From: a virus
DNA: 35,192 nt
Virus record (IMG/VR): IMGVR_UViG_3300048694_000665
Coordinates: 1-35,192 of that record
Strand: one strand, 5' to 3'
In this document: positions 5,982 through 31,919 of the stretch, piece by piece
Position numbering within the stretch: the stretch's first letter is position 1
Layout: each line of letters starts with the position of its first letter
Position numbers and translations under genes: made by a program
The notes under the pieces: generated by a model
Told to the model about the DNA's origin: nothing
The model's input: the letters and a program-made list of their open reading frames with translations, nothing else
Database searches by the model: none

Positions 5982-6221
5982 TTATGTATAAAATTGGTCA
6001 GCATCTTCTACCACAGAATCTAGCTGGAGATACACCGCTATCAGCAAGTCGCGAATCTCACCTAGACGATTTATTCCTGTCTCATTACGATGAACGATTC
6101 CGTCACTTTCGACGTATGTTGCCTGATCACAAGCATTAACCGTCGCTGAGAAAACATCTTCTTGCTTCTCTTGCAACTGATGTAACAATGATACTCCGTT
6201 GCTTTCTGACAGTCTAAACAT
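5982..6221 (-). CDS. Array A2 small protein 9, 79 aa
   Basis: Unrecognised; last gene of a nine-gene array. Helical N-terminus (SLLHQLQEKQEDVFSATV) and a long C-terminal helix (IRDLLIAVYLQLDSVVEDAD). The ATG at 6221 overlaps the upstream stop by 8 bases; longer in-frame starts would run deep into the neighbour. Confidence 0.62.
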   Translation of the reverse strand: MFRLSESNGVSLLHQLQEKQEDVFSATVNACDQATYVESDGIVHRNETGINRLGEIRDLLIAVYLQLDSVVEDADQFYT

Positions 6222-6405
6222 TGTCGACAAACTCTTGTAATCGATCGAAGATCGTTCTATATGAACGGAGAGAAAGCTCCCTAGCAGGAAACGTTTCTGT
6301 GTACAGATGAGCTGCTGTCGTACCATCTAGATATTGACATGATTTATCATATGTTGTTTTCTTAATTAGGTAGTTCAACTTCTCTTCAACACGTTGGTCT
6401 TTCAT
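6214..6405 (-). CDS. Array A2 small protein 8, 63 aa
   Basis: Unrecognised. Helical N-terminus (VEEKLNYLIKKTTY), a middle AAHLYTETF, and ELSLRSYRTIFDRLQEFVDNV at the end, with the LRS triplet seen in several array members. ATGA overlap with the previous gene. Confidence 0.65.
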   Translation of the reverse strand: MKDQRVEEKLNYLIKKTTYDKSCQYLDGTTAAHLYTETFPARELSLRSYRTIFDRLQEFVDNV

Positions 6406-6593
6406 TTAAATACCTTTTGCATTGTGTCAATGATGGCGAAATCTAAAGTAGCACCAATCATGGAGACCCTAACACCAATCTCAATATTAACATTACCGCC
6501 CCATTGAAGTGTATCAGAATTTGCTGTTGCTCGATAGCAATTGAATTCGATCACCGCTATCTTTTCTTCGGCGTCAGCTGGGTTGATTCTCAT
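6402..6593 (-). CDS. Array A2 small protein 7, 63 aa
   Basis: Clear strand-rich layout: EKIAVIEFNCYRA, then VNIEIGVRVSMIG, then the C-terminal helix FAIIDTMQKVFK. Start uncertain between ATG 6593 and ATG 6608; both lie within the end of the upstream gene and neither has a good ribosome site. Confidence 0.63.
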   Translation of the reverse strand: MRINPADAEEKIAVIEFNCYRATANSDTLQWGGNVNIEIGVRVSMIGATLDFAIIDTMQKVFK

Positions 6594-6813
6594 TTGAAAT
6601 ATCCGCATCAATTTGTCTAGAGATACTTGCCAACATATCATGCGCTATATGCATCGTAATGTCCCAACAGATGCTGCTTACATTACGAACTGATTGTTTG
6701 GCGGCGAATACCTTCGATGGATCAAACTCAACAGCCTTTTCGGTAACTGAAAAACAAACGTTTTCAATAAACTCAGTTCGGATGTTACATGGTGTTTTCG
6801 AGAACGACGTCAT
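6574..6813 (-). CDS. Array A2 small protein 6 with CWDI motif, 79 aa
   Basis: Strand VCFSVTEKAVEF, then SVRNVSSICWDITMHIAHDML, the CWDI block shared with the genes at 2897, 6785 and 30303. Starts within the last 29 bases of its upstream neighbour. Function unknown. Confidence 0.68.
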   Translation of the reverse strand: MTSFSKTPCNIRTEFIENVCFSVTEKAVEFDPSKVFAAKQSVRNVSSICWDITMHIAHDMLASISRQIDADISNENQPS

Positions 6814-7042
6814 CTATTGAATCCATAATTGTCCAACACAACGTAGGCATAGAAGTGTCCGTTTGTTCATATACAATGCTATAAACCTGTTGTTCGATGT
6901 ATGGTTGAACACTCCATCGAGGATTATTGGGATATTGCGCCGCGCGTTGCATCTCTCGGACAACAGTCTCCATCCGCTCGGCAGATTTGATCACTAGTGC
7001 CAGTGTGCTACTTAAAGTCAAGATCATAAATTCCTTCATCAT
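6785..7042 (-). CDS. Array A2 small protein 5 with CWTIM motif, 85 aa
   Basis: N-terminal hydrophobic stretch (MILTLSSTLALVIK), strand QQVYSIVYEQ, and LCWTIMDSIDDVVLE at the end. ATG codons at 7042, 7039 and 7027 are all possible; the last gives a 15-base overlap more like its neighbours. Confidence 0.65.
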   Translation of the reverse strand: MMKEFMILTLSSTLALVIKSAERMETVVREMQRAAQYPNNPRWSVQPYIEQQVYSIVYEQTDTSMPTLCWTIMDSIDDVVLENTM

Positions 7043-7238
7043 ACTTCAATCTGTCGTCTCGAATTATTCTGGTTATATGTTGATCGGCCGCATTTTGGGT
7101 TAACAGAATCGTTGCATAATCCATACACCAGTCGGACACCTTCAACCGTATAGTAAGGTCAACGCGTAGATCAACTTTACTTTGTATTTTGTTATTATAT
7201 GTGTCGAGACCCCTTGGCATTCGTTTATTCATATACAT
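7008..7238 (-). CDS. Array A2 small protein 4, 76 aa
   Basis: Textbook alternating strand (KVDLRVDLTIRLKV) followed by a helix (CMDYATILLTQNAADQHITRII) and an acidic tail (YDEGIYDLDFK). ATG start 14 bases inside the upstream gene. Function unknown. Confidence 0.66.
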   Translation of the reverse strand: MYMNKRMPRGLDTYNNKIQSKVDLRVDLTIRLKVSDWCMDYATILLTQNAADQHITRIIRDDRLKYDEGIYDLDFK

Positions 7239-7449
7239 TGAAATCAGTGACTTGTAGTATCAACGATCTTAATGGAACAAGTGTTACTGCGGTTGATCTT
7301 AAACCTTTAGTGGTATACATATTTGATAGCCACCTCAAATCCCCTCCAACACAATCATATGTCTGCAGCCGGCACTTAGTTTCGATGTCCCGTATCAATC
7401 GCTTTGGTTCAGTCTGACAGATCTTATTTACTAATTCTGAAGTACGCAT
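7225..7449 (-). CDS. Array A2 small protein 3 with LRST motif, 74 aa
   Basis: Helix SELVNKICQ, a Cys/Asp/Gly middle, then KGLRSTAVTLVPLRSLILQV, containing the LRST triplet shared with the genes at 2545 and 7639. The ATG at 7449 gives a 26-base overlap; the longer frame is unlikely. Confidence 0.65.
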   Translation of the reverse strand: MRTSELVNKICQTEPKRLIRDIETKCRLQTYDCVGGDLRWLSNMYTTKGLRSTAVTLVPLRSLILQVTDFNVYE

Positions 7450-7642
7450 CGTCGAGCAGCCTATTTGTATTTGTGTTGAGAATTGTCTGCATATGCTCAT
7501 GCTCAAATTGTATATACTTGAAAAGAGCACTCATATTCAGTTCATAGTGTGGGTAATCGATGCATCTGTACGTATGTGTCAGCGTTGGTTGCTGGCAGTT
7601 CGTCCATATAAGATCGGTAACCAATTGAGACGGTATTGTCAT
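7424..7642 (-). CDS. Array A2 small protein 2, 72 aa
   Basis: Unrecognised, rich in His and Tyr (LTHTYRCIDYPHYELN), with a helix SALFKYIQFEHEHMQTILN. Weakest fit to the shared layout, but held in place by an ATGA overlap upstream and a 26-base overlap downstream. Confidence 0.62.
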   Translation of the reverse strand: MTIPSQLVTDLIWTNCQQPTLTHTYRCIDYPHYELNMSALFKYIQFEHEHMQTILNTNTNRLLDDAYFRISK

Positions 7643-7863
7643 AAAACACTAACTTCCCTATAGGCAGCTAATTCAATATCCAAGAATAATTGCAAAGTAA
7701 ATATTTTTGTAGATCGTAACGCGTTGCGTGCCCCGTCCTCGACCGGAAATGATGTTGCGGCTGCGGTTCGCTTTTCGACGATCTGTGCAACGTCATCTGT
7801 ACGTATGTGAGAGCGTTCCAAAACACAGTCGTCGGGGATATATGTGTCCATGATTTCAGTCAT
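7639..7863 (-). CDS. Array A2 small protein 1 (leader gene), 74 aa
   Basis: First gene of the array. Contains ARNALRSTK followed by a hydrophobic strand (IFTLQLFLDI) and a final helix (ELAAYREVSVL); NALRSTK is identical in the gene at 2545. The ATG at 7863 lies exactly at the predicted +1 of P5 with no room for a ribosome site, so a leaderless message is predicted. A GTG at 7905 lies inside the promoter and is rejected. Confidence 0.68.
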   Translation of the reverse strand: MTEIMDTYIPDDCVLERSHIRTDDVAQIVEKRTAAATSFPVEDGARNALRSTKIFTLQLFLDIELAAYREVSVL

Positions 7864-7869
7864 AGTACA

Positions 7870-7898
7870 AATATCCCCGAGTGAGTGACAAAAGTCAA
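7870..7898 (-). promoter_or_regulatory. Promoter P5 of array A2
   Basis: TTGACT (7898-7893), 17 bases, GATATT (7875-7870), six bases, ATG. It begins right at the stop codon of the endolysin gene, with no terminator between. Confidence 0.8.
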
Positions 7899-9537: not shown

Positions 9538-10292
9538 TACATTCTAGATAGTGGGGCGATTGCATTGCTATCCTCCAATTCATTTCGTATCATAATATAT
9601 TGCTTAACCAATCGCGAGCGGACAATGTCCTCTGGTTGAAATTCAACGAACTCAAATGAATTCATTCTTTTGATGATCTTGATGAAGTCTGCAGTACCAG
9701 AAGTCTCTTTTCCGCGTACGAGATCGGTCTGTCGCAAGTCGCCGCATATGATGATCTTGCAATTGACACCAACTCGAGTCATTACTGTATTTAACTCTGG
9801 TGCTGTCATGTTCTGGCATTCGTCAACAACCAATATACAGTTGTTGAATGTTAGTCCTCTAAGGTATGATGTTGATACAAACTCAATTTTGTCTTTGTTC
9901 TTGAGAACGTCATATGCATCTGATCTACCAAACAGCTCTGTGCATATTGCATAATATGGCTGCTCATAGACTCGCATCTTCTCTTTCTGGTTACCGGGCA
10001 GAAAACCAATGTCACGTGACGGAACAATCGATCGAATGATGTACACCTTCCGATGTATGTCACTATCAAGAGCTTGCGCAAGAGCAAGGCCTAGTGATAT
10101 GAACGACTTTCCTGTTCCAGCTGTTCCATAGAGGAACAAATTCTTACCATTGTAGTACTGATTAAATGTGACCTGTTGGTTTGGGGTTATTGGGGAGATC
10201 TGTTTTATTGTTATTCCGGGATTTGGCTCACTGTATGCACCTTGTTTACGAAGTGCACGACGTTGTTTCTTTGTAAGCTTTTCCTGAATCAT
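9537..10292 (-). CDS. PhoH-like ATPase
   Basis: A 251-residue P-loop ATPase. Walker A is GTAGTGKS (56-63) and Walker B is ILVVDECQ (153-160); GDLRQTD, the DVVRSRLV-type arginine region (EDIVRSRLV) and IGFLPG are PhoH hallmarks. A basic N-terminal tail (KLTKKQRRALRKQ) could bind nucleic acid. PhoH-type proteins are RNA helicase/ATPases and are widespread in marine phages; the phage role is unsettled. Confidence 0.93.
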   Translation of the reverse strand: MIQEKLTKKQRRALRKQGAYSEPNPGITIKQISPITPNQQVTFNQYYNGKNLFLYGTAGTGKSFISLGLALAQALDSDIHRKVYIIRSIVPSRDIGFLPGNQKEKMRVYEQPYYAICTELFGRSDAYDVLKNKDKIEFVSTSYLRGLTFNNCILVVDECQNMTAPELNTVMTRVGVNCKIIICGDLRQTDLVRGKETSGTADFIKIIKRMNSFEFVEFQPEDIVRSRLVKQYIMIRNELEDSNAIAPLSRM

Positions 10293-10718: not shown

Positions 10719-11255
10719 TTAACTTGCTGCTGCTACTTTTGGTTTATTCTTAGACCCCTTGGGACGGCCGCCCTTACGAGGTGCTGCAGGCGACTGCTTG
10801 CTCTCTGCAATCGGCGCCTGAGTTTCAGGAAACGTTGTCCGGGGCGGAATCAGCCCCGGGTAAGCTTTCTCTATAGTATCGTAACTTAGTGGATAAGGCA
10901 ACGTTTTATTTTTCACTGCTAACATCAGTTTAGCATCTTCAGGGTCTATAGACTCCAATAGTTCAATGAACAGCTGTTCACGTTTTGCCTGCTTAAGTGT
11001 CTGATGGCCTCCAGCGACGAATAGGTACATCTTCCGTGCTTCTGTATACAACATCCCTTGGGCATCAAGAAGCTCCTCGCCCTGAGTATAAGGAGGATCT
11101 GTCTCTGGAAGGAGAAACTTGACCTGTGGGTGGAATGCACTCTGTAAAATGATTCGAAGCGGTTCGCTATCATTGTTATGCAGCACTTTAATCTGCTTGT
11201 CTTGAGTTGGCTGTTTTGCAGCTTCTGCAAGAATTTCTGATATAGATTTTTTCAT
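10719..11255 (-). CDS. DUF6433 family protein with C-terminal AT-hook
   Basis: A 178-residue protein matching the DUF6433 family of T4-type phages. Features are ISEILAEAAK at the start, AFHPQVKFLLPETDPPY, EARKMYLFVAGG, a REQLFIELLESIDPEDAKLML block and YPGLIPP. The C-terminal tail (APRKGGRPKGSKNKPK) is an AT-hook, which binds the minor groove of AT-rich DNA. I do not recall an AT-hook as a fixed part of the family. Confidence 0.85.
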   Translation of the reverse strand: MKKSISEILAEAAKQPTQDKQIKVLHNNDSEPLRIILQSAFHPQVKFLLPETDPPYTQGEELLDAQGMLYTEARKMYLFVAGGHQTLKQAKREQLFIELLESIDPEDAKLMLAVKNKTLPYPLSYDTIEKAYPGLIPPRTTFPETQAPIAESKQSPAAPRKGGRPKGSKNKPKVAAAS

Positions 11256-13096: not shown

Positions 13097-13309
13097 TCAT
13101 TTCCTCTGTAGGGCATCAACTCTTGCGAGAGCACGGCGGATCGATATATCAACGAAATATCCATCCTGATTAACAAAAACATATGTTTCATCATATACTC
13201 TAAATCTGGTACCACGATCACCTGAATTCATCGTCTTGGTCTGCATTGTACTAAGTACAGTTTGTTGAATTATATCTTTAGTGACATTGGATACTCGATC
13301 ATTTGTCAT
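13097..13309 (-). CDS. Array A3 small protein 7, 70 aa
   Basis: Helical N-terminus (SNVTKDIIQQTVL), then two strands (TRFRVYDETYVFVNQ and GYFVDISI) and the final helix RRALARVDALQRK: one of the clearest examples of the shared strand-strand-helix layout. ATGA overlap upstream; its stop lies just before the RNase H GTG. Confidence 0.7.
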   Translation of the reverse strand: MTNDRVSNVTKDIIQQTVLSTMQTKTMNSGDRGTRFRVYDETYVFVNQDGYFVDISIRRALARVDALQRK

Positions 13310-13575
13310 TGCAAATTCTCTACAATAAAAGACAATGAACGATAGACAACTGACCTCAATGGTTCCAATGGCTGCCGAGTAATTATAGATACGGTTGATG
13401 AAAGCTCCACATCATCAATTTCCACGGATCCATATTCTGGTATAATGACAGTATGATGATTAACTGCTGCTATTGATGTTGCTTTGTCTAATCTAGTGTG
13501 GCATACGTCCTTTATTCGATTGCGAGTGTGAAAATTATGCGTTGGAAATGGTTTGTATAGGACAGGCTCTTTCAT
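13306..13575 (-). CDS. Array A3 small protein 6, 89 aa
   Basis: Strands TVIIPEYGSVEIDDVEL and TVSIITRQ, then PLEPLRSVVYRSLSFIVENL. The LRS triplet and final helix match other array members. The ATG at 13575 forms an ATGA overlap with the upstream stop; longer in-frame starts are rejected. Confidence 0.68.
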   Translation of the reverse strand: MKEPVLYKPFPTHNFHTRNRIKDVCHTRLDKATSIAAVNHHTVIIPEYGSVEIDDVELSSTVSIITRQPLEPLRSVVYRSLSFIVENLQ

Positions 13576-13766
13576 TTGTAACTCTTGTAAATTTTTTCTA
13601 CTGCAGCGAGCAACGATAATTCTATTGATGAATACGTAGCAAAAGCAGCTGCTGAATACCCGGGTAATCCACGTACGTAGTTGCAGTAACATGTTGCCCG
13701 ATCAACCTCCGTCATAATATGATAAATCGATCGGCGTATACGTATATCGGGCTGCAAAGCTGTCAT
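13572..13766 (-). CDS. Array A3 small protein 5, 64 aa
   Basis: Strand DIRIRRSIYHI near the N-terminus, then a Cys/Tyr-rich middle and a C-terminal helix (IELSLLAAVEKIYKSYK). Coupled by ATGA overlaps at both ends. Function unknown. Confidence 0.66.
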   Translation of the reverse strand: MTALQPDIRIRRSIYHIMTEVDRATCYCNYVRGLPGYSAAAFATYSSIELSLLAAVEKIYKSYK

Positions 13767-13987
13767 TTGTGATCATCAATCTGTTGTTTTACTGCTGGGA
13801 ATATTGAATGAAACAAGTCAATTCGTGTTGAAATTGGATCATCAATCAGCTCATACAGTATGTTTGGTGACGCCATACCATATCCGCACCTCTTGGTCTC
13901 GTCAAGCATTTTTGACATTATGACGTGCGTATAGTAGTATCCTTGGTATCCTTGTAGATCAGAAGTGATGTATTTTCTATTTGACAT
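13763..13987 (-). CDS. Array A3 small protein 4, 74 aa
   Basis: Tyr-rich N-terminus (LQGYQGYYYTHVIMSKML), a Gly/Pro middle and the helix IDLFHSIFPAVKQQIDDHK. ATG at 13987, 11-base overlap upstream, ATGA downstream. Weak match to the shared layout, but the same size and arrangement. Confidence 0.65.
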   Translation of the reverse strand: MSNRKYITSDLQGYQGYYYTHVIMSKMLDETKRCGYGMASPNILYELIDDPISTRIDLFHSIFPAVKQQIDDHK

Positions 13988-14216
13988 TATTGTTACTGAG
14001 GGTTGTATTAATATTACCAAAAGCTGGCATTGCAATGATATCTAATAGCTGCAACTGTGACAATTTGCCCAAAGCTAGCAACTGTTGTTGATTGATTGTA
14101 TGATGACATGCATTCATCGTCGAATATAGGTTAGCAGAAAATACTTCATGTGTTTTGGTATATGAATCAAGTGCTCCCATCATATTCAGTCTTCGAAATT
14201 GCGGATCACCGTACAT
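13977..14216 (-). CDS. Array A3 small protein 3, 79 aa
   Basis: Helical, with LNMMGALDSYTKTHEVF and QQQLLALGKLSQLQLLDIIA, ending Asn-rich (INTTLSNNNVK). Starts 11 bases inside the upstream gene. Not recognised; placed in the array by size and overlap. Confidence 0.62.
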   Translation of the reverse strand: MYGDPQFRRLNMMGALDSYTKTHEVFSANLYSTMNACHHTINQQQLLALGKLSQLQLLDIIAMPAFGNINTTLSNNNVK

Positions 14217-14403
14217 CTTTAATTACCTTATCAAGGTAATTGTATACATCAAGCAACGTCAATCTTCTTATTGAAAATCGTTCATTGTCAAGCAACGTTT
14301 GTCTAACCTTGGCCCCAGCATCTGTCAACGTATAAGAATCAATTGTTCCGTAAAAAGATCGAACGCTAATCGTTCGATGATGAGTTGTTGTATCAAGTTT
14401 CAT
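14206..14403 (-). CDS. Array A3 small protein 2, 65 aa
   Basis: Strands RTISVRSFYGTIDSYTL and RFSIRRLTLL, then the C-terminal helix VYNYLDKVIKDVR. The ATG at 14403 gives an 11-base overlap with the upstream gene; ATGs at 14439 and 14490 would overlap it deeply and are less likely. Confidence 0.66.
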   Translation of the reverse strand: MKLDTTTHHRTISVRSFYGTIDSYTLTDAGAKVRQTLLDNERFSIRRLTLLDVYNYLDKVIKDVR

Positions 14404-14647
14404 TTTGCTGGCTCGATTCGTTGATTTTTCTCGTAACATCGTATATTTGGCCGATACATGAAAGTCCAGTTGCCTCTGCAGATGGTCCAATGCCCGACCA
14501 AATTGACCAATATACAGATTGCGTTGGTCTTATATCAATAACTTTATCAGAACAATCAACCGCAATCTTGCGTGTTCTTTCGCATGCAGCCATATGCGGA
14601 AGACGAACTCTAATTGCAACTGTCTTATTGTTGCTGTTCTGTTGCAT
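14393..14647 (-). CDS. Array A3 small protein 1, 84 aa
   Basis: Begins with strongly alternating strands (KTVAIRVRL, RKIAVDCSDKVIDIRP), then an aromatic YWSIWSGI and a C-terminal helix (IGQIYDVTRKI). The ATG at 14647 lies within the last 23 bases of the upstream conserved gene. First gene of array A3. Confidence 0.64.
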   Translation of the reverse strand: MQQNSNNKTVAIRVRLPHMAACERTRKIAVDCSDKVIDIRPTQSVYWSIWSGIGPSAEATGLSCIGQIYDVTRKINESSQQNET

Positions 14648-15110
14648 CGAATTCACCGGCATCAATCTGATCGTCAGTAACCATCGTTAGAGTGTTATTC
14701 TCTCGATCAACGATTGCAATATTGCCGGTCCCTCTCCACTTGATCACATTTGGTTGTTGAAATTCAAAGCACTCATCTGCAAGCTGATGGAACCCATGAT
14801 GGCCACGTTCCATTCGCCTCCACAGAAGAGCCTTGATTGCTTCCGCGGCAAAAAGAACACTGGTAATGTTCTCTTGGTCGTTCCATATAGAATAAGGAAC
14901 CGGAGATTGTTGATCTCCAAGTTCCTGCATAATGTATTCGAGAATGTCACAAGACAGTTTGTTGATTTTGTCCTGCTGAGAGATTACAGCTGATACAATA
15001 GCAGCCTCGTGTTCATTGACATCGTCGAGTGTGTCTAGTACCTGCTGATATGCAATTCCGGGTTGCTGGTTGTTCTTAGTTGGAAACGGAATTACGTTGT
15101 CTTCGTTCAT
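14625..15110 (-). CDS. Conserved phage protein, 161 aa, unknown function
   Basis: Starts MNEDNVIPFPTKN, then a long helical region (VLDTLDDVNEHEAAIVSAVISQQ) and a C-terminal strand pair (NIAIVDRENNTLTMVTDD). No catalytic motif seen. ATGA overlap with the large gene upstream; its end overlaps the first gene of array A3, so the array is co-transcribed with it. Confidence 0.72.
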   Translation of the reverse strand: MNEDNVIPFPTKNNQQPGIAYQQVLDTLDDVNEHEAAIVSAVISQQDKINKLSCDILEYIMQELGDQQSPVPYSIWNDQENITSVLFAAEAIKALLWRRMERGHHGFHQLADECFEFQQPNVIKWRGTGNIAIVDRENNTLTMVTDDQIDAGEFDATEQQQ

Positions 15111-24142: not shown

Positions 24143-24663
24143 CCGGCAACGTCTCCGTAGAATGTTATCTGTGTCTCATGCATCAGTCGTGTGAACATGT
24201 CGACCAGTTGACTATCGGTCAGACCGGTATCCAAATCAACCTTTATTTGATGTTGCGGAATGTTCAGCTCATAGTCATCTGCAACGACCCATCGGCATGC
24301 ATCAGTCGACGGAATGTTACGATGTAACCAGTCATAGATTGCAGTTACCCGACCATCAATTAGATCGGGGAACCGTGTTTTATGATGCGGGTGTATCAGA
24401 TTGCAATGGAGACCATTGCGGATTGCGCAGTTACGGACTTCATTCAGTCCCTCGGTGCCATTATGGGCAGTATTAAACACAACACGGATGTTCTGTGGCG
24501 GGCAGTGCTCGTTGAGAGTGCTGATCACATTTGAGTCCCATTTTAGGACGTTGTCTTCGTGATAGTCATACATTGCAATCCCGGAACTATACCGCTTGTG
24601 CAAGCGCGCTGGAATCAACGGACCATCAACGTCCATGAAAATTATCTTATGTAATGTCGACAT
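24112..24663 (-). CDS. HAD-superfamily phosphatase
   Basis: 183 residues. Motif I is FMDVDGPLI (Asp11, Asp13), motif II VVFNTAHN with a Thr/Asn, and motif IV VVADDYEL near 127-134. The insert-free layout resembles the HAD domain found with RNA-repair proteins (SAK-HAD). Likely a phosphatase on a nucleotide or nucleic-acid end. Overlaps the last gene of array A4 by 17 bases. Confidence 0.8.
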   Translation of the reverse strand: MSTLHKIIFMDVDGPLIPARLHKRYSSGIAMYDYHEDNVLKWDSNVISTLNEHCPPQNIRVVFNTAHNGTEGLNEVRNCAIRNGLHCNLIHPHHKTRFPDLIDGRVTAIYDWLHRNIPSTDACRWVVADDYELNIPQHQIKVDLDTGLTDSQLVDMFTRLMHETQITFYGDVAGWASSTSQRK

Positions 24664-24871
24664 ACTTACTCCAAATTATGTCATCAAAACGATCTGGCAT
24701 CATCGCCAAATCAGTACCAGTACTAGCAACAGCTCTATCTACAAGCGGCCAGATAAAATAGATAAAATAGCGCATTTCTTTCACTCGCAAATCATTTGAG
24801 TTGTTAACGATGACAAGAAGATCTTGTTTTATCTCCAAAGTCTTCCACATAGCATCTTCATTAATAATCAT
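24647..24871 (-). CDS. Array A4 small protein 4, 74 aa
   Basis: Strand TLEIKQDLLVIVNNSND, then LRVKEMRYFIYFIWPLVDRAVAS and a final RFDDIIWSKY. ATG at 24871 is chosen among several clustered ATGs (24874, 24871, 24850) because it gives an 11-base overlap. Function unknown. Confidence 0.63.
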   Translation of the reverse strand: MIINEDAMWKTLEIKQDLLVIVNNSNDLRVKEMRYFIYFIWPLVDRAVASTGTDLAMMPDRFDDIIWSKYVDIT

Positions 24872-25094
24872 CATAATCACTTTGCGTTACTGCAGCATCG
24901 ATAGCATCGTCTGCCAAGTTCATAATAGCACGCGCAGGTATCTGATCAGTACGATCTTTAACGTCAACCCATGTAAAAGATTTCACTGCTCTTCTCAATG
25001 TCAAATCACTTCGTTTAATGAGCTCATCATCATACCCTTCGAACCGGTATCTGGAGATTTTGTGCGCAATGATTTTCATCGGCCAATAGTGCAT
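24861..25094 (-). CDS. Array A4 small protein 3, 77 aa
   Basis: DLTLRRAVKSFTWVDVKD forms the LR-containing strand, followed by the helix AIMNLADDAIDAAV and an acidic tail. ATG 25094 gives a 65-base overlap and ATG 25079 a 50-base overlap with the upstream gene, both unusually long; the start is uncertain. Confidence 0.6.
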   Translation of the reverse strand: MHYWPMKIIAHKISRYRFEGYDDELIKRSDLTLRRAVKSFTWVDVKDRTDQIPARAIMNLADDAIDAAVTQSDYDDY

Positions 25095-25284
25095 GTTTGA
25101 TTAGTTGGGTGATTTGCAGTTCTAACCGATCAGCCGCGGTTGTCGGTACAGCAGTTAGTGTCGTTATATATACAATATTCCAATCTTTATTGAGCATTTC
25201 ACATGTAACCTGCATTGATTTAAAGTACGATCCAGCCGCAATAATACACGTATCGTTCCGGGGCCGAGCGCTATGTTGCGTCAT
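25030..25284 (-). CDS. Array A4 small protein 2, 84 aa
   Basis: Strands TCIIAAGSYF and MQVTCEML and NIVYITTLTAV, then a long helix (ADRLELQITQLIKHALL) and a short tail (NLQIPVRRV). ATG start 14 bases inside the upstream gene. Function unknown. Confidence 0.63.
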   Translation of the reverse strand: MTQHSARPRNDTCIIAAGSYFKSMQVTCEMLNKDWNIVYITTLTAVPTTAADRLELQITQLIKHALLADENHCAQNLQIPVRRV

Positions 25285-25871: not shown

Positions 25872-26062
25872 TCATCGATCTCTTCTATCAACTTGACATT
25901 GCTAACTGCTATCGGAACTAGATCAAGGCCGTTTACTTCCTGAAAGTGCTGGCCATCGAAACGGCCAGCCTTCAGTTGTTTTTCTACCGCAGCAAACGAC
26001 TTTGCATCGACCATTAGCTCAACATCAAATGTTAGATTTGCTCTAACAATGAATGTTGGCAT
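25868..26062 (-). CDS. Small alpha/beta protein, 64 aa
   Basis: Strand TFIVRANLTFDVELMVDA, helix SFAAVEKQLKAGRF and strand AVSNVKLIEEI. Resembles small phage proteins with a DpnD/PcfM-like compact fold, though I cannot confirm the family. Overlaps on both sides (TAATG upstream, ATGA downstream). Confidence 0.7.
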   Translation of the reverse strand: MPTFIVRANLTFDVELMVDAKSFAAVEKQLKAGRFDGQHFQEVNGLDLVPIAVSNVKLIEEIDE

Positions 26063-26403
26063 TAGTCCTGTACCTTACGGAACCCTTCCGGCGTATACTC
26101 ACGCTGACGAGTAACCTTGTACGTACCCTCGTCGAACATGATAGGCTCGTGAGTGTCATAATCACGAAGATGCTCAAGCGCAACCGGGTCGCTGACGACC
26201 AGCAAGCACTCCATAATAGAATCAGGAAGCTGGTACATCTTGACCTTTTCCTTTTCCATCACGTGGTGGTGACCGGTCTCACTATGAGTGACGATCACGT
26301 AGTTACCTTCCGGCTTGACCTCGACTGCATTAGCCGGCACAGCCATGTTCGTCCGGCGGATGTAGACATCACCCTGTGCACAGACATTGTTAAACTTTTT
26401 CAT
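26062..26403 (-). CDS. Conserved phage/bacterial protein, 113 aa, unknown function
   Basis: Resembles a widespread small protein: NNVCAQGDVYIRRT at the start, YVIVTHSETGHHHVME (metal-like His cluster), LEHLRDYDTHEPI and the conserved end YKVTRQREYTPEGFRKV. Function unknown to me; the His cluster could bind metal. First gene of the P8 operon; GGAG precedes the ATG. Confidence 0.83.
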   Translation of the reverse strand: MKKFNNVCAQGDVYIRRTNMAVPANAVEVKPEGNYVIVTHSETGHHHVMEKEKVKMYQLPDSIMECLLVVSDPVALEHLRDYDTHEPIMFDEGTYKVTRQREYTPEGFRKVQD

Positions 26404-26438: not shown

Positions 26439-26467
26439 AATATACCAGATGTTTGTTGGGAAGTCAA
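26439..26467 (-). promoter_or_regulatory. Promoter P8 of the long central operon
   Basis: TTGACT (26467-26462), 17 bases, TATATT (26444-26439). The predicted +1 A gives a leader of about 30 bases with GGAG. It should drive the roughly 10 kb operon down to 16583, since no terminator or other promoter is seen inside. Confidence 0.8.
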
Positions 26468-26492
26468 CTAGCTATTTATCTGTTGTAGTTCA
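26461..26492. repeat. 32-base promoter-upstream repeat, copy 2
   Basis: Matches 5640-5671 at 31 of 32 bases, covering the -35 of P8 and the flank up to the stop codon of the last array A5 gene. Confidence 0.8.
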
Positions 26493-26690
26493 CGGTGTTA
26501 CATCTTCTAGTCCTCTGTCAATTGCTGTACTAATTGACATGCTTCTCACGCATGCTCGGTTAGCTCGGTTGTTAACAACCGTTTTGGTCCGAAGAATCAC
26601 AGCAACATGCATATTGGTATCTTCTGCTATAGAAGTCGCATTGATCAGGCTTCGCTGAACATCTTCTATCTGTCGAAGCTTATCGGACAT
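26490..26690 (-). CDS. Array A5 small protein 5, 66 aa
   Basis: Helix LRQIEDVQRSLINATSIAE, strand MHVAVILRTKTVV, then ACVRSMSISTAIDRGLED. The RSM[ST][IL] block resembles IRSMTL in the gene at 27108. ATG start 11 bases inside the upstream gene. Confidence 0.68.
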   Translation of the reverse strand: MSDKLRQIEDVQRSLINATSIAEDTNMHVAVILRTKTVVNNRANRACVRSMSISTAIDRGLEDVTP

Positions 26691-26910
26691 TTATATTCCA
26701 GTGTTCAACATATCCCCAATTGATTTGATTATTCAATTTCCTTGTTATCACTGCAAATACGTTGTGGTCGACATCCGGAATAGTTCTAATTATGACGAGG
26801 TTGTACGTACGGTTGTCGACGGCTTCGGGTGCCTTCGCTACCCCGCATTGCGCGCAAAGATCATCCCTACAACTGGCAATTTTATCTCGAATATTCTGCA
26901 TATAGAACAT
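26680..26910 (-). CDS. Array A5 small protein 4, 76 aa
   Basis: Three or four cysteines near the N-terminus (ASCRDDLCAQCGV), strand TYNLVIIRTI, then FAVITRKLNNQINW. The start may be ATG 26910 or 26901. The Cys cluster is unusual within the family. Confidence 0.64.
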   Translation of the reverse strand: MFYMQNIRDKIASCRDDLCAQCGVAKAPEAVDNRTYNLVIIRTIPDVDHNVFAVITRKLNNQINWGYVEHWNINVR

Positions 26911-27097
26911 CGTTGATTGCTGACGTCACAATTAATGTGTATCTCAGATGTACTTGTGAACGCATGATCGACAGACTATCGATTCTACACAAATCAACAG
27001 ATTCTGTGGTCAGTCGCGCATCTTTATATACATCACCAGTTACAACTCGTGTCTTTTGATTACGTATCTGATGTTCAATCGAAATCTCAGAAGACAT
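26882..27097 (-). CDS. Array A5 small protein 3, 71 aa
   Basis: Strands TRVVTGDVYKDARL and SQVHLRYTLIV, then the helix TSAINDVLYAEYSR. The ATG at 27097 has AGGA eight bases upstream and lies ten bases after the previous stop, the only array junction here without overlap; a TTG at 27127 is rejected. Confidence 0.67.
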   Translation of the reverse strand: MSSEISIEHQIRNQKTRVVTGDVYKDARLTTESVDLCRIDSLSIMRSQVHLRYTLIVTSAINDVLYAEYSR

Positions 27098-27107
27098 CGA
27101 TATATTC

Positions 27108-27329
27108 CTAATATCCAACCGTGCCAAATGGCGTCTTTGGTAGGCTTCGATATATCGCTAATAATACCTCATCAGAGCGGATCGCATCTTGCGGCAAGGT
27201 CATACTACGTATCGTCAAAAAATTGACACGATTGTGGGTTGGTGTATCAACCGACAATCTCGTCTGGTGTTCCGTCCAGTCGTACAACCGACGTATTCTA
27301 TCACGAGAATGATAACGATCCATAGTCAT
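27108..27329 (-). CDS. Array A5 small protein 2, 73 aa
   Basis: Strand HNRVNFLTIRSMTL, then DAIRSDEVLLAIYRSL. The last block is nearly identical to VIRSDEILLALHRTV in the gene immediately upstream, the clearest direct evidence that array genes are paralogues. ATGA overlap with that gene. Confidence 0.7.
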   Translation of the reverse strand: MTMDRYHSRDRIRRLYDWTEHQTRLSVDTPTHNRVNFLTIRSMTLPQDAIRSDEVLLAIYRSLPKTPFGTVGY

Positions 27330-27571
27330 CGCTCATGTTCTTTGCGTTGTTGCCAGACAGAAACAGAAACGGTTCGATGTAACGCTAATAGTATTTCATC
27401 GGAGCGAATAACATTCCGTTGTATACTGTGAACCGCCAAGTTATGTGCAACGGTATTGTACGTCTTTAATTCGGCGGATGCAAACACCCGCCGTCTCACG
27501 ACACTTAATATTTCACGTGTCGATCGATACGTATGGTGATGATCGGGGGGCCGCGGCCCCCCTCCTCTCAC
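27326..27571 (-). CDS. Array A5 small protein 1, GTG start, 81 aa
   Basis: Starts with GTG overlapping the upstream TGA (GTGA). The N-terminus (RGGGPRPPDHHH) is encoded by an 18-base perfect palindrome of G and C. The rest matches the family: strand TVAHNLAVHSI, then NVIRSDEILLALHRTV, the twin of the gene at 27108. Confidence 0.66.
   Translation of the reverse strand: MRGGGPRPPDHHHTYRSTREILSVVRRRVFASAELKTYNTVAHNLAVHSIQRNVIRSDEILLALHRTVSVSVWQQRKEHER
27545..27562. repeat. 18-base perfect GC palindrome
   Basis: GGGGGGCCGCGGCCCCCC, 17 bases after the GTG of array A5 gene 1 and just past the DUF6745 stop. It would form a very stable hairpin in the message or DNA; no T-run follows in the transcribed direction, so it is not a standard terminator. 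Confidence 0.85.
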
Positions 27572-28602
27572 GTCCGGACCTCAGGTACAACAAAGTCCTC
27601 AATGTCCATTCCAAACGTCCACGCATTGGCCTGCAGCGCAGTCTTCATGTCAGGCGGGACCGGAAGAGCAAACTCTCGGCCAGTACCACAACGAACACGG
27701 AGGAACCGCTCCTTGCCGATATCTGGGAGCTCAACTTCGACTAGCTGACCAATCTCAGGGTCACCGTCGGTGTTGATCACCTTTGCGTTCAGCTCATTGA
27801 GGATCTTTGCCCAACCAAGGATCTCACAAGCAGCTCGACGCTGCTCGATATTAGCCCATGTAAGAGCAGTCTTTGCAGTCAGAGACTTTGGATTCGTGAT
27901 CCAGTTCTCCGGGATGTTGACTCCGTGCCAGTGATAGAGAGCCCAACCATCGCGCCAACGATGAGAAGGTCCATCCTGACCATGTGCACGATTCTCGTCA
28001 TCGATCTTCAATAGCTCGGGGAAGTCGGCAACGATACAGAACTTCTCGTGCATAACACGGAACGTCCCGTGGATTGCAGCCTCTTCCCAAAACTTATAGT
28101 TCTTGTGCTCCTCGAGGCGGAGACCAAGGATATCACGCATTGCGGTCAGGTAGCTATCGTACTGAGCCCAGTACGCACCACCCTGATAGACAGAAGACCA
28201 CTGCTTTGCGGCTTCGAGTCCGTCTCGTCCTGCGAGTTCTTTGCAGACAGAGACGTAATGAGCAATGCAGTCCTTGCCTTCCGGGATCGCTTCCATCTTG
28301 CTCTGGACAGTCGCAAGCATACTTGCGATTGCTTCGTTTCCAGTCAGCTTCTCGGAAAGGACGGCGCATGTGCCGTACATCAGAACCATTTCAATAGGAG
28401 ACTTGACCAATGCAACCTCAGGGATTGCAAGTCCAGCAGCATTATACAGCCCCTGGATAGCCGGCTTCAACTTGCTGAAATCGGCCGGTTCAGTAGAAAG
28501 AATTCGCTTAGTCCACATCTCGGCGTGCTGCTTGAGAAGGACCTTTTCCTCCTCAGTAATACCACCAGCAACCTTAGTGGGCGTACGAATGATCTTTGAC
28601 AT
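27568..28602 (-). CDS. DUF6745 family protein, 344 aa
   Basis: Features of DUF6745: RVMHEKFCIVADFPELLKID, HGQDGPSHRWRDGWALYHWHGVNIPENWI and an ITNPKSLTAKTALTWANIEQRRAACEILG region. The C-terminal part (PDIGKERFLRVRCGTGREFALPVPPDMKTALQANAWTF cut into repeats of the family) is as expected. Function unknown, but common in phages and actinobacteria. The ATG at 28602 has AAGGAACGC upstream; first gene of the P9 operon, leading into array A5. Confidence 0.83.
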   Translation of the reverse strand: MSKIIRTPTKVAGGITEEEKVLLKQHAEMWTKRILSTEPADFSKLKPAIQGLYNAAGLAIPEVALVKSPIEMVLMYGTCAVLSEKLTGNEAIASMLATVQSKMEAIPEGKDCIAHYVSVCKELAGRDGLEAAKQWSSVYQGGAYWAQYDSYLTAMRDILGLRLEEHKNYKFWEEAAIHGTFRVMHEKFCIVADFPELLKIDDENRAHGQDGPSHRWRDGWALYHWHGVNIPENWITNPKSLTAKTALTWANIEQRRAACEILGWAKILNELNAKVINTDGDPEIGQLVEVELPDIGKERFLRVRCGTGREFALPVPPDMKTALQANAWTFGMDIEDFVVPEVRT

Positions 28603-28636: not shown

Positions 28637-28665
28637 AATATAGCTTAGCAGCGGATAGAAGTCAA
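28637..28665 (-). promoter_or_regulatory. Promoter P9
   Basis: TTGACT (28665-28660), 17 bases, TATATT (28642-28637); predicted +1 A about 28 bases before the DUF6745 ATG. It begins shortly after the end of array A6, with no clear terminator. Confidence 0.78.
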
Positions 28666-28687: not shown

Positions 28688-28897
28688 TCAGTCGGTTAGC
28701 GCCCTCCGGACCTGTTCCCTTATTCGATTGGTCAGCGTGGAGTCGATATCACTTGCAATCATAACCGACGAAGCTTGATATACTTGTCTATTCAAATGTC
28801 TATTCAGAATACCCGCGGTTGTTGACTCGGACATTGATTTCATTAACTTGTTGTGAATTTGGGTAATCTTGTTACGGCAATAGTCATTACTTGACAT
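28688..28897 (-). CDS. Array A6 small protein 9, 69 aa
   Basis: Helices (KITQIHNKLMKSM, AGILNRHLNRQVY), a short strand SSVMIASDID and the C-terminal helix TNRIREQVRRALTD. The ATG at 28897 overlaps the upstream stop by 11 bases; a TTG at 28939 is rejected. Confidence 0.66.
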   Translation of the reverse strand: MSSNDYCRNKITQIHNKLMKSMSESTTAGILNRHLNRQVYQASSVMIASDIDSTLTNRIREQVRRALTD

Positions 28898-29108
28898 TAT
28901 CTTCAACCCAATTGCGGACTGATTGGTCCGTTGTTCCAATAAATCCTGTTAATCTATCTAAAATCTTTTGTGACTCCTGGCTCGTTTGCCAGTCGACAAC
29001 GTTGGCATTTTCGCGAAATGGATTGTCATTTATTCGATCAGCTAGTTGATTGCGACTCCCGTTAAGAGCAAGCAACAGCTGATATTCCCGGCCGAATGTC
29101 ATTCTCAT
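28887..29108 (-). CDS. Array A6 small protein 8, 73 aa
   Basis: Helical: REYQLLLALNGSRNQLADRI, KILDRLTGFIG and the final SVRNWVEDNVK. GGAGAG precedes the ATG at 29108 by eight bases, placing it just after the upstream stop; ATG 29102 is also possible. Confidence 0.62.
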   Translation of the reverse strand: MRMTFGREYQLLLALNGSRNQLADRINDNPFRENANVVDWQTSQESQKILDRLTGFIGTTDQSVRNWVEDNVK

Positions 29109-29112
29109 TAGT

Positions 29113-29346
29113 TCATCTCTCCAATGCATGTTCAACTTGCTCCGCGATCCATCGATATGGTACTGCGAATGATCCTAGTGATCGAAGGGTATTGTGGTTA
29201 ATCATCTTCACATCAGCTCGAATCAATGCTTCTACCGGAGGAACACTTGTCGGGCGGTTTGCATCACCGAGACGAACTGATCGTAAAACAGCTGTTAGTG
29301 GGGCAACAACTTGTTCTGCAACGACTGTAGCCGTTGACCTTTTCAT
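29113..29346 (-). CDS. Array A6 small protein 7 with LRS motif, 77 aa
   Basis: HNTLRSLGSFAVPY is the N-x-LRS block of the arrays, followed by WIAEQVEHALER. N-terminal half is Val/Ala/Thr-rich (TATVVAEQVVAPLTAVLRSV). ATGA overlap with the upstream gene. Confidence 0.68.
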   Translation of the reverse strand: MKRSTATVVAEQVVAPLTAVLRSVRLGDANRPTSVPPVEALIRADVKMINHNTLRSLGSFAVPYRWIAEQVEHALER

Positions 29347-29549
29347 TGCAAAGCTCTTTTTAGACTAACAAACACCACATGATCGACTTTTCCGGTTTTT
29401 TTCAAAATTCCTTCATCAGCAACCTCAGCATATATCTTTCCGGACGTTACCTTATCGACAGCTCCTCTCATATGAGCTGTTGCGACGCGGTCTATACTAC
29501 CGCGGTCGATCTTGTCAAGAAGATGAGGATACAAACCAGGTTTAAACAT
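29343..29549 (-). CDS. Array A6 small protein 6, 68 aa
   Basis: Strands GKIYAEVADEG and VDHVVFVS, then the short helix LKRALQ. HMRGAVDKVTSGK precedes. The ending VVFVSLKRAL resembles ITFVDDHLEKAL in the gene at 29717. Overlap of 8 bases upstream, ATGA downstream. Confidence 0.68.
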   Translation of the reverse strand: MFKPGLYPHLLDKIDRGSIDRVATAHMRGAVDKVTSGKIYAEVADEGILKKTGKVDHVVFVSLKRALQ

Positions 29550-29742
29550 CTAATCGCCGTTCAATCTCATGTTGAATCTGGGAACGGACGTTCGTGTTCG
29601 TCGCGCGCTGGGTGGAAAATATCAAATACGAATTCAACACATCAAAACGAATTTTGATTTCAGAATGATATGTGACTTTTTTAGCAAGATCATCCACAAA
29701 ACAGTTCGTCAATTTCTTAGCTTGATCGCGATCGGATAGCAT
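29542..29742 (-). CDS. Array A6 small protein 5, 66 aa
   Basis: Helix LTNCFVDDLAKKV, strands SEIKIRFDVL and SYLIFST, then the C-terminal helix VRSQIQHEIERRLDV. ATG start inside the last 26 bases of the upstream gene. Confidence 0.67.
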   Translation of the reverse strand: MLSDRDQAKKLTNCFVDDLAKKVTYHSEIKIRFDVLNSYLIFSTQRATNTNVRSQIQHEIERRLDV

Positions 29743-29923
29743 TATATAAAGCCTTTTCTAAATGATCATCGACGAACGTTATCGAGTTGATCGGCAACCC
29801 CATTACTATACCATTCGTCGCAATATTAATCTCAACTTCAACTGCACGGTGGCTTCGATCAACTAACGGAATTACAACTAAAGATTGTGTTATATCCGCA
29901 ACGCCGTTGATATAATCATCCAT
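29717..29923 (-). CDS. Array A6 small protein 4, 68 aa
   Basis: Strands SLVVIPLVD, AVEVEINIAT and INSITFVDD, then HLEKALYNAI: the most complete strand-strand-helix example. The ATG at 29923 overlaps the upstream stop by 8 bases; the open frame to 30049 is ignored because it would lie inside a better neighbour. Confidence 0.68.
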   Translation of the reverse strand: MDDYINGVADITQSLVVIPLVDRSHRAVEVEINIATNGIVMGLPINSITFVDDHLEKALYNAIRSRSS

Positions 29924-30107
29924 TGATATCACCAAGTACCTTTTTGACGGCCGACGCGATGTACCATGCATGCGAGATGCCACTGGCAACAGCAGATCTA
30001 GCTTGACGTCGCACAAAAACATCCGCAACATTAATATACTTGCGCTCAAGAGGAGATGTGGTCACCTTTTGTGTTTCTAAGTTGAAATCAACGTCAGGGA
30101 AACTCAT
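29916..30107 (-). CDS. Array A6 small protein 3, 63 aa
   Basis: Strand KYINVADVFVRRQ, then AVASGISHAWYIASAVKKVLGD. ATGA overlap with the upstream gene and an 8-base overlap downstream fix both ends. Function unknown. Confidence 0.67.
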   Translation of the reverse strand: MSFPDVDFNLETQKVTTSPLERKYINVADVFVRRQARSAVASGISHAWYIASAVKKVLGDING

Positions 30108-30319
30108 CGTACTTTATTGCAATAAAAAAAGAGTGCACTTTGTATATCCCACCGCGCTACAGTAATTTCCTTAATGAAAAAATTTCTTATGTAACTGCGC
30201 AGCTGCGGGGTACAACAATCCAAATATGCATCGGAAAGAGATGTGGAAATCAGCCGATGGATGTGTACCGCTGGAGGTTGTCCCACCGGTACATCCACAT
30301 TATTAAATTCTGCCATCAT
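30104..30319 (-). CDS. Array A6 small protein 2, 71 aa
   Basis: N-terminal strand NNVDVPVG, helix ISTSLSDAYLDCC, then strand FFIKEITVARW and helix IQSALFFYCNKV. ATGATG start overlaps the upstream gene by 14-17 bases. The opening codons include an imperfect hairpin (TGTACCG arms) that may be chance. Confidence 0.66.
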   Translation of the reverse strand: MMAEFNNVDVPVGQPPAVHIHRLISTSLSDAYLDCCTPQLRSYIRNFFIKEITVARWDIQSALFFYCNKVR

Positions 30320-30512
30320 TGCACACTTCGTTCAAGGTTCCCATCATATCCCAGCAAATATTACTGCTAGTTCGTATAGAAGTTAACTTCACAACTGTCT
30401 TCCTCAACTTCATCGTGGCAGCCGTATAATACGCATTTGTAAGAGCAGTATACGTAGCAGCATCTATATCCGATTGAGGATTGGTTGGAGAACAATATGG
30501 ATCATACTTCAA
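30303..30512 (-). CDS. Array A6 small protein 1 with CWDMM motif, probable TTG start, 69 aa
   Basis: Helix YTALTNAYYTAATM, strand KLRKTVVKLTSI, then SSNICWDMMGTLNEV, the CWDIM-type block. No ATG fits: the only one would overlap the metallophosphoesterase by 95 bases. A TTG at 30512, with GGAG nine bases upstream and an 11-base overlap, gives normal family length. Confidence 0.63.
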   Translation of the reverse strand: MKYDPYCSPTNPQSDIDAATYTALTNAYYTAATMKLRKTVVKLTSIRTSSNICWDMMGTLNEVCNDGRI

Positions 30513-31317
30513 AGTGCGAAACTCCGTTCCATTGCCGATAACTCGACTCACCACGATACCCGCGGCAGTTTGCAAGTACCTGAGTGTCACCAACATTGTA
30601 CTGACTGATGATGTGTGTGTGACCGCTGATCCAATGAGTGATGTTCGGGTTGTCGAGGATCAGATTGGAAAGGTCCGAACAGTACCCACCATCAATCCCA
30701 TTGCCAACGTGCTCACGATGCAAGCTCTGGTTCGTCGGCCCATGATGGGTAACGACCAAGATCTTGTTATCAGCGAACTGAGCGGCACACTGAGCAATAT
30801 AGTCACGTGAGATCTGATGATCATTATACGTGACGGCGGGAGTAAGCGGCTTTCCGATCTCATTGTTCCAAATGATCCGATAGTCGTTCATTCCCTGAGC
30901 AACGTTTGCCATTGAGATTGGATTACCACGCTCGAAATCTGTCCATAGAGTTGCACCAACTAATTTATAGTCGCCAACTGTCACACACGTGTTGTTCAGC
31001 AACGTGATGTTGTGCAGATTGTTGTCGGCCAAGTACCGACGAAGGTACTCGTCAGTCTTTTGATAGATGCAGTGATAGTGCTCATGGTTACCAAGAACCA
31101 TGTATATCGCGCTGTACTTGTCAAGCAGCTGTGGCTTGAAATGATCAGCAAGGTACTTACGAAGCTTAATCGCACCCTTATCCGTACGCCATGGCGCAAG
31201 ACTGAATGCAGTTAGAATGTCTCCAGCAAGAATAAGAACATCGCCGCCCGGATCGTTTGAGAAATCCGGAAAGTCGAGAAACTCAAGATGAAGATCGCTT
31301 GTGTAACCTATTTTCAT
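30502..31317 (-). CDS. Metallophosphoesterase, second copy type, 271 aa
   Basis: A calcineurin-like phosphoesterase unlike the one at 196-732: SDLHLEF (7-13), ILAGDIL (29-35), LGNHEHYH (75-82), VVTHHGPT and SGHTHIIS supply the metal ligands in order. The longer form resembles bacterial Icc-like enzymes. Substrate unknown. It is embedded between arrays A7 and A6 in one operon. Confidence 0.88.
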   Translation of the reverse strand: MKIGYTSDLHLEFLDFPDFSNDPGGDVLILAGDILTAFSLAPWRTDKGAIKLRKYLADHFKPQLLDKYSAIYMVLGNHEHYHCIYQKTDEYLRRYLADNNLHNITLLNNTCVTVGDYKLVGATLWTDFERGNPISMANVAQGMNDYRIIWNNEIGKPLTPAVTYNDHQISRDYIAQCAAQFADNKILVVTHHGPTNQSLHREHVGNGIDGGYCSDLSNLILDNPNITHWISGHTHIISQYNVGDTQVLANCRGYRGESSYRQWNGVSHFEV

Positions 31318-31519
31318 TGTCTATCACTTTCCATATTGTAGTGCGGATCTGTTGATCTAGATCAGTTGCTATTTGTCGGATGTTTCGTGTAACGAATTCG
31401 GCGGGCGAACGCAGAGAACAAAACATCGGGAACTCCTCAATCCATATGTTTTGATTCGATATATCCCATGTTGGGGACTCCGTCGCATCATGGATTATCG
31501 TTTCGGTTGTCTTTCTCAT
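31283..31519 (-). CDS. Array A7 small protein 3, 78 aa
   Basis: FCSLRSPAEFVTRNIRQIATDL carries the LRS block, followed by the helix DQQIRTTIWKVIDN and a basic tail. ATGA overlap upstream; it overlaps the metallophosphoesterase start by 35 bases. Confidence 0.66.
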   Translation of the reverse strand: MRKTTETIIHDATESPTWDISNQNIWIEEFPMFCSLRSPAEFVTRNIRQIATDLDQQIRTTIWKVIDNENRLHKRSSS

Positions 31520-31728
31520 TTGTAGGGAACCAAATCAAGTAGAACCCGTTCAATCTCATTTGAGGGGGCATGTATGTTGACCTGTGTGATCCTAACAGCT
31601 CCACCTCGCGTCTGAGCATCACCGGCCTTTGTTGTTCGAAACCAGACTTCAAAATACATCAATTGATATGTGGTTGCATTTGTTGTGGGCACCGGAGGCG
31701 ACTTTATCGGGACGAATGGTTTATGCAC
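31516..31728 (-). CDS. Array A7 small protein 2, GTG start, 70 aa
   Basis: Two strong strands, TYQLMYFEVWFRTT and GAVRITQVNIHA, then SNEIERVLLDLV. No ATG is available; the GTG at 31728 gives family length and a 25-base overlap with the upstream gene. A TTG at 31803 would overlap it by 100 bases. Confidence 0.63.
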   Translation of the reverse strand: MHKPFVPIKSPPVPTTNATTYQLMYFEVWFRTTKAGDAQTRGGAVRITQVNIHAPSNEIERVLLDLVPYK

Positions 31729-31919
31729 TGTTCTATTGCACTCTCGATTAAAAATCGAATTACAAAACGATCTATTGTTCTTGTCGCATCGCGCACGTCG
31801 CAATACGCAATTTGGGTCACATGAAGTGCTCCGTGATTTGCGGAGATCGTTTTCGATGTCAACGAGTCGCTTATTGAAGCGGTTCGTGCATCAGCGTCTG
31901 CGAATGGACCATTTGACAT
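31704..31919 (-). CDS. Array A7 small protein 1 (leader gene), predicted leaderless, 71 aa
   Basis: N-terminal Asp/Ser/Thr-rich part (DADARTASISDSLTSK), strand ALHVTQIAYCDVRD, then a helix (RFVIRFLIESAIEQCI). Its ATG (31919) lies exactly at the predicted +1 of P10, within one arm of a perfect inverted repeat, so there is no leader. Confidence 0.7.
   Translation of the reverse strand: MSNGPFADADARTASISDSLTSKTISANHGALHVTQIAYCDVRDATRTIDRFVIRFLIESAIEQCINHSSR

Follow-up and report, generated by a model that had tools for sequence, protein, structure and literature searches.

The viral record IMGVR_UViG_3300048694_000665 raises the question of where its many tiny genes come from and whether they belong together. 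The window analysed here is the whole of this IMG/VR record, 35,192 bases, and is a fragment of a T4-like phage genome. It contains about 37 open reading frames (ORFs) of 58–89 codons, all on the minus strand, which are grouped in six tandem arrays (A1–A6, Table 1). The original prediction, made from the DNA letters alone, described about 39 genes of 63–89 codons in seven arrays. Tandem arrays were found where they had been placed; the numbers fall to six arrays and about 37 genes as two tiny genes (A0) are dropped, and with the best starts, chosen among the candidate starts, the sizes reach down to 58 codons. The array genes are likely to form a diverged family rather than a collection of unrelated ORFs. 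Collectively they are similar to each other and to repeat-containing tiny genes, the NATx and QVx genes, located at the same sites in related T4-like phages.

Tandem arrays and their collective similarity

The arrays are genuine chains of tightly overlapping ORFs. A simple gene caller, blind to the coordinates of the original prediction, recovers them. Tight same-strand chains of ORFs of 58–95 codons comprise nine members in A1, seven in A2, five in A4 and nine in A5, compared with a maximum of three in shuffled DNA (500 dinucleotide-type shuffles per array) and zero to two on the opposite strand. Neighbouring genes overlap at 31 of 37 array boundaries, mostly by 4, 8, 11, 14 or 20 nt, in agreement with the same-strand, mostly end-overlapped layout originally described. 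The codon-position base composition of the array ORFs is coding-like (G1 0.29, G2 0.15), with a higher A+T share at third positions than the long genes have. Codon usage differs from that of the long genes, and by this measure the coding frame ranks first among the six for just 15 of 38 tiny genes; a codon-usage score derived from the long genes was set aside as a coding test, being not decisive for tiny genes. Shine-Dalgarno-like sequences are present at 5 of 38 array starts versus 34 of 60 other genes (Fisher p 2e-5). Because such starts are few and the boundaries overlap, the array genes are probably translated one after another through coupling.

Ordinary sequence search recognises only the pair 27108/27326 (E about 2e-3). 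Similarity is evident at the level of the whole set. The mean local-alignment score above the shuffled expectation is 1.46 for the array proteins, compared with 0.35 ± 0.26 (maximum 1.35) for 5000 same-size sets sampled from a pool of 227 non-redundant small phage proteins. When the array proteins are compared with the remaining small proteins of this phage, the mean excess is 0.09. In-frame DNA matches of 13–14 bases (CWDI, EIER) are also found. A seven-residue match, NALRSTK, between genes 2545 and 7639 was given no weight, because 2545 belongs to the otherwise unsupported A0. An ungapped motif search was rejected as family evidence since it rose barely above the controls, and MAFFT did not yield a usable alignment of all members. 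The viral scan with the 27108/27326 pair returned no matches, and no family for the tiny genes was found in PHROGs, Pfam, NCBIfam or PADLOC (in PHROGs and Pfam, none at useful E-values).

Table 1. Arrays and associated features of the window. The pairwise test compares each array with the arrays of related phages; where two scores are given, the second is the control. Its p-values treat pairs as independent, which pairs are not. Rank refers to 76 runs of tiny genes.
Feature	Position	Strand	Description	Pairwise test	Rank
A1	5982..7863	-	9 genes: 7639, 7424, 7225, 7008, 6785, 6574, 6402, 6214, 5982; 63–80 aa	2.50 vs 0.46, p 4e-5	13/76
A2	13097..14647	-	7 genes between 5'-3' exonuclease (12251–13093) and gene 14625–15110	p 1.5e-9	11/76
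A3	24647..25284	-	3 genes; doubtful fourth (25271) reaches 25447	p 2e-3	
A4	26490..27571	-	5 genes between DUF6745 gene and partner gene; includes pair 27108/27326	p 1.3e-8	7/76
A5	28688..30512	-	9 genes between metallophosphoesterase and DUF6745	p 3.5e-4	10/76
A6	31283..31919	-	3 genes upstream of metallophosphoesterase	8.03 vs 0.36, p 5e-10	
A0	2545..3100	-	Two tiny genes of the original prediction; unsupported as members	p 0.8	
Metallophosphoesterase	30502..31317	-	phrog_1649, E 1.5e-47; syntenic anchor between A6 and A5		
DUF6745 protein	27568..28602	-	344 aa; PF20530, E 4e-22, 78.9 bits vs cut-off 27		
Partner gene	26062..26403	-	113 aa; QGDV...HSETGHHHV...THE...REYTPEG		
Promoter-like TTGACT-N17-GATATT	7870..7898	-	Heads A1		
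Promoter-like TTGACT-N17-TATATT	28637..28665	-	Heads DUF6745		
Promoter-like TTGACT-N17-TATATT	26439..26467	-	Heads partner gene		
Promoter-like TTGACA-N17-GATATT (one mismatch)	31926..31954	-	Heads A6		
Gene junction, 11 nt, ATGTCCGATAA	26680..26690	-	Same form at 13977–13987 and 28887–28897		

Repeat mini-genes at the same sites in related phages

The DUF6745 gene located between A4 and A5 was used as a probe for related loci; PhoH proved too general for this purpose. The probe led to the loci L164 and L165/L166, where the DUF6745 protein is 75% and 69% identical, respectively, to that of the window; L166 is part of a 149-kb contig. The tiny genes of L164 and L166 mostly consist of tetrapeptide repeats (NATx), e.g. 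MLNKTKDATYNATWNATWNATYNATENAT...NAIVRELEHVE, and are joined through an 11-base overlap, ATGTCAAATAA or ATGTTGAATAA. The gene order in L166 is metallophosphoesterase, three tiny genes, DUF6745, four tiny genes, an HNH gene, the partner gene and seven tiny genes. The order in the window is metallophosphoesterase, the nine genes of A5, DUF6745, the five genes of A4, the partner gene, two other genes and A3. A5 is found at the position of the 3-gene NATx arrays of L166 and L164, A4 at that of the 4-gene NATx array of L166, and A3 at that of the 7-gene L166 array downstream of the partner gene. The metallophosphoesterase gene is similarly placed in L166 and L168. The HNH-type gene of L166 (11916–12527), lying between two tiny-gene arrays, may represent a mobile element at this site.

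The L166 arrays contain both repeat members and members in which the repeat is largely gone and the ends are kept (MSDKTWNEIRNIT...TAIKRELEHVK). The end motifs MSNK/MSDK...AIxRELEHV are common to the repetitive and the non-repetitive members, and the window gene 26490 retains both of them (MSDKLRQ...STAIDRGLEDVTP; MSDK...TAIDRGLEDV). Tiny genes of the L164/L166 type have constant ends and variable Asn/Thr-rich cores. Young copies in the relatives are 187-bp units that are 87% alike, and they stand beside eroded copies in the same array; this fits the gene amplification with fast diversification put forward in the original prediction. The window junction ATGTCCGATAA matches the form of the relatives' junctions ATGTCAGATAA/ATGTCAAATAA. 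The pattern ATGTCNRRTAR has three minus-strand matches in the window, each of them at an array junction; 0.79 matches would be expected on both strands.

Two T4-like contigs, L116 and L086, had been collected earlier via another gene and are independent of the DUF6745 probe. In L116, four tiny QVx-repeat genes (MKSVKKQVDDQVEDHVRGQVW...) flank the DUF6745 gene (E 2.6e-32) and the partner gene. L086 carries three QVx-repeat tiny genes with 23-base overlaps between the counterparts of the gene 14625–15110 and of the exonuclease gene, which corresponds to the A2 site. The NATx and QVx arrays of L164, L165/L166, L086 and L116 are like those of the window in gene size, tandem layout, overlaps (-11, -8, -23), positions and statistical similarity. 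They keep visible tetrapeptide repeats, whereas the window genes do not, and the window has more genes at more sites. The original prediction missed DUF6745, the partner gene and the probable tetrapeptide-repeat origin, as the repeats have faded from view in the window. A repeat gene used as tblastn query gave no matches, probably since low-complexity filtering masks the repeat.

The statistical link between the window arrays and the repeat mini-genes was assessed with a hidden Markov model (HMM) built from 14 L164/L166 array proteins. This model separates the window array proteins from unrelated small proteins with an area under the curve (AUC) of 0.87 (p 5e-14), from composition-matched controls with an AUC of 0.84 (p 5e-9), from small proteins of the same phage with 0.83 (p 3e-6), from their own shuffles with 0.73 (p 4e-7) and from reversed sequences with 0.67 (p 4e-3). 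A second HMM, built from non-repetitive L166 members, gave similar results, and A6 is the top array by HMM. Tested array by array, A1–A6 are all positive in the pairwise comparison, with p from 2e-3 to 5e-10. Per-protein p-values are 3e-6 for the NATx set, 1e-8 for the diverged set and 5e-5 for the QVx set (L086/L116). When the 76 runs of at least three tiny genes in the collected loci were ranked by their likeness to the NATx and QVx families, the four window arrays tested (A4, A5, A2 and A1) were placed just below the arrays with visible repeats, near the L168 array at the metallophosphoesterase–DUF6745 site. The evidence for homology is statistical and positional: the set-level similarity, the relatives' HMM, the per-array tests and the matching layout and positions in related phages all bear out the paralogue-like character that had been proposed.

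T4-like phages carry clusters of small early ORFs, and the window resembles them in its T4-like genome, its short same-strand overlapping genes and its dispensable-looking insertion sites. The arrays could be ordinary hypervariable early-gene islands of this kind, made of unrelated small ORFs whose weak likeness comes from composition or short helices. The insignificance of most pairs and the lack of a PHROG or Pfam family at useful E-values would agree with this. However, the excess of similarity persists against shuffled, composition-matched and same-phage controls, the array positions coincide with those of repeat mini-gene arrays, and no other run of at least seven tight tiny genes was found in the non-syntenic related loci screened. 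Unlike the known clusters, the window genes would all belong to a single family associated with a particular module next to them. Early-gene islands of unrelated ORFs are regarded as an unlikely explanation.

The DUF6745 module and its genomic setting

The DUF6745 gene of the window is a member of PF20530, whose proteins are found in phages, Actinobacteria, Deinococcus and Nostoc, and it has the same partner gene nearby. In phages and bacteria, many members carry a long period-4 repeat after the N-terminal part; the window member does not (period-4 score 0.07), and the arrays flank the gene instead. The internal repeats are of the QATx, AATx and EATx types in L169, L171, L172, L174 and L177, of the SSLx type in MW202476, and of the QLxD/G type in the mycobacterial prophage prophiGD102-1, Pseudonocardia, Gluconacetobacter, Sphingobium, Arthrobacter and a Gastranaerophilales genome. 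A repeat mini-gene beside DUF6745 is absent in 12 of 13 internal-repeat loci; in the remaining locus, L174, there is a mini-gene whose meaning is unclear. L116, L164 and L166 contain mini-genes and a DUF6745 gene without an internal repeat. DUF6745 occurs, in phages and bacteria, with repeats either inside the protein or in neighbouring tiny genes, together with the partner gene. Other period-4 ORFs near DUF6745 (MALx, RPxL; L174 7570–7935 and L230 47–214) may be genuine mini-genes or spurious frames. Leucine-rich-repeat-like sequence is found beside DUF6745 (L169 8074–8937) or fused to it (L237 4362–5372, Deinococcus), which suggests that different repeat types are swapped onto DUF6745.

Within the repeat units, the fixed codons are nearly identical in DNA, and one or two codons vary. 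All 28 units of MW202476 (L236) have AGC AGC CTC without any change, whereas their fourth codon alternates among GGG, GAG, TGG and AGG. Such expansion might be non-adaptive: 12-bp slippage would enlarge a minisatellite with several frames open by chance, drift would erase it, and the products would have little function. The unit-level expansion is obvious in the relatives, the repeat differs by lineage (NATx, QVx, QATx, AATx, SSLx, QLxx), and the neighbouring window genes 7639 and 7424 share an identical 16-bp stretch (minus strand, 7809 and 7578) in different frames, all of which would suit this explanation. Slippage and drift account poorly, however, for about 37 diverged frames that stay open with coding-like codon-position composition and tight coupling, for fixed codons that are identical while nearly all variation falls in one codon, and for the recurrence of period 4 at the same DUF6745 place in unrelated phages and bacteria. 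We consider a purely non-adaptive origin improbable.

Most complete loci have the partner gene (QGDV...HSETGHxHV...REY) next to DUF6745 or not far from it. The partner protein has conserved His/Glu residues, perhaps a metal site. No Pfam, NCBIfam or PADLOC match was found for the window partner protein, and a PDB search with DUF6745 returned nothing. A genome-collection scan with the phage DUF6745 alignment also found nothing; the mycobacterial prophage version did find matches. STM4011–STM4015 genes adjoin DUF6745 and the partner gene on plasmids of Deinococcus and Streptomyces. In L237 and L246, the bacterial DUF6745 and a partner-type gene stand beside STM4011–STM4015 radical S-adenosylmethionine (SAM) clusters of unknown function. 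The mini-proteins might be pictured as substrate peptides that DUF6745 and the partner modify or process, in the manner of precursor peptides in modification pathways. Their short genes, constant ends and variable Asn/Thr-rich cores, the radical-SAM neighbourhood in bacteria and the putative metal site of the partner would be compatible with such a role. Against it, neither a radical-SAM gene nor a transporter gene was noticed among the window genes, no leader-binding domain is recognisable, and in many loci the repeat is inside DUF6745 itself. A substrate role appears very improbable.

The remaining gene content of the window is T4-like and includes PhoH, a PD-(D/E)XK exonuclease, a 5'-3' exonuclease, glycosyltransferases and phosphoesterases, nearly all genes being on the minus strand. 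No close annotated phage was found for the window; a 355-aa protein has a distant relative in Sinorhizobium phage phiM12 and related records. No reverse transcriptase, the sign of a diversity-generating retroelement, was found among the larger proteins scanned within the 35-kb fragment. The motif TTGACT-N17-KATATT occurs in four copies in the window (1895–1923, 7870–7898, 26439–26467 and 28637–28665; 0.02 expected), which probably represent a phage promoter class, and degenerate copies are present elsewhere in the window. In L082, a recurring promoter-like leader (translated ..DFFTRACIIMVQPL..) precedes several small genes (9605–9943, 9927–10259, 11615–11926 and 13314–13469). A 324-aa gene without a PHROG match (11261–12235), glycosyltransferase-like by eye only, lies between the exonuclease gene and the gene 10719–11255, and is missing from that junction in L082.

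Proposed origin and use of the arrays

We propose, with modest confidence, that the arrays are detached and diversified tetrapeptide-repeat mini-proteins of the DUF6745 module, for which host takeover or counter-defence is the most likely use. The ancestors would have been mini-genes with a 12-bp unit belonging to this module. New copies would arise through gene duplication at the conserved start/stop junction, would grow or shrink by 12-bp units, and would then drift, under selection to stay open, until the repeat becomes invisible as in the window. Each mini-protein may act as a variable binding element, with or in place of the DUF6745 repeat domain. Its specificity, in early host takeover or in countering host defences, would depend on the number of repeats and on the variable residue.

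The counter-defence or host-takeover role, taken by itself, is only a tentative assignment, and was chosen because of the analogy with the mycobacteriophage protein Tweety gp54. This protein has a described tetrapeptide repeat (PMC2884959) and is reported as a tunable counter-defence, with altered repeat numbers in the mutants that escape Phrann gp29/gp30 (PMC9262239). The relatives' genes are like gp54 in their 12-bp/tetrapeptide repeats, with part of the unit fixed and part variable. Unlike the arrays, gp54 is a single 374-aa protein with the unit AA-G/W-S/Y and not a group of tiny tandem genes. Tetrapeptide repeats between unique ends, a trait of gp54, are present in the relatives' genes and absent in those of the window.

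Several observations weigh against the proposed origin and use. Tweety gp54 has no match to DUF6745 or any other Pfam family, and a DUF6745 tblastn does not reach Tweety, so that the comparison is an analogy only. The window DUF6745 has no match in NCBIfam or in PADLOC, and no paper on DUF6745, no experiment and no defence association was found for it in the literature covered. Apart from 27108/27326, individual pairs are insignificant, and the pairwise p-values presuppose an independence that the pairs lack. A3 is the weakest array, showing no excess over its own shuffles with the HMMs, and the A0 pair shows no similarity excess in the pairwise test against the relatives' arrays. No period-12 or tetrapeptide repeat is visible in the window; the residual 12-bp/4-residue periodicity (lag-12/24) of its genes is weak, and controls show a lag-4 signal too. 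The A1 and A2 sites have no array in L082, the closest syntenic relative, or in L166, so these arrays were either gained in the window lineage or lost elsewhere. Structure prediction did not yield a usable fold: the AlphaFold model of 27108 (with 27326), made without a usable alignment, is all helix with a predicted local distance difference test (pLDDT) score of 57, and that of 29542, alone and with no relatives, is a single implausible 62-residue helix. These uninformative models do not show the strands followed by a short C-terminal helix that had been described for most of the proteins.

Phage tetrapeptide-repeat proteins and T4-like small-gene islands are known already; the arrangement of tiny-gene arrays around DUF6745 is undescribed. 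In the literature covered, which included few subscription papers, no description of DUF6745, of the partner gene or of detached tetrapeptide mini-gene arrays was found. A broader view, which we hold to be somewhat short of probable, is that DUF6745 and its partner use a hypervariable tetrapeptide element, fused or detached, as an evolvable recognition repertoire. This would be a widespread undescribed system, which in the window comprises about 37 genes at six sites, diversified beyond recognition. In bacterial DUF6745, an internal repeat that varies in one or two codons is the pattern expected of a recognition element. As Tweety gp54 is the one studied tetrapeptide-repeat phage protein and is reported as a tunable counter-defence, the function is open to direct testing. 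Tiny genes without relatives abound in phage genomes. An orphan set that can be traced, via intermediates in related phages, to what is likely one repeat-born family would provide a model of how orphan phage genes originate.

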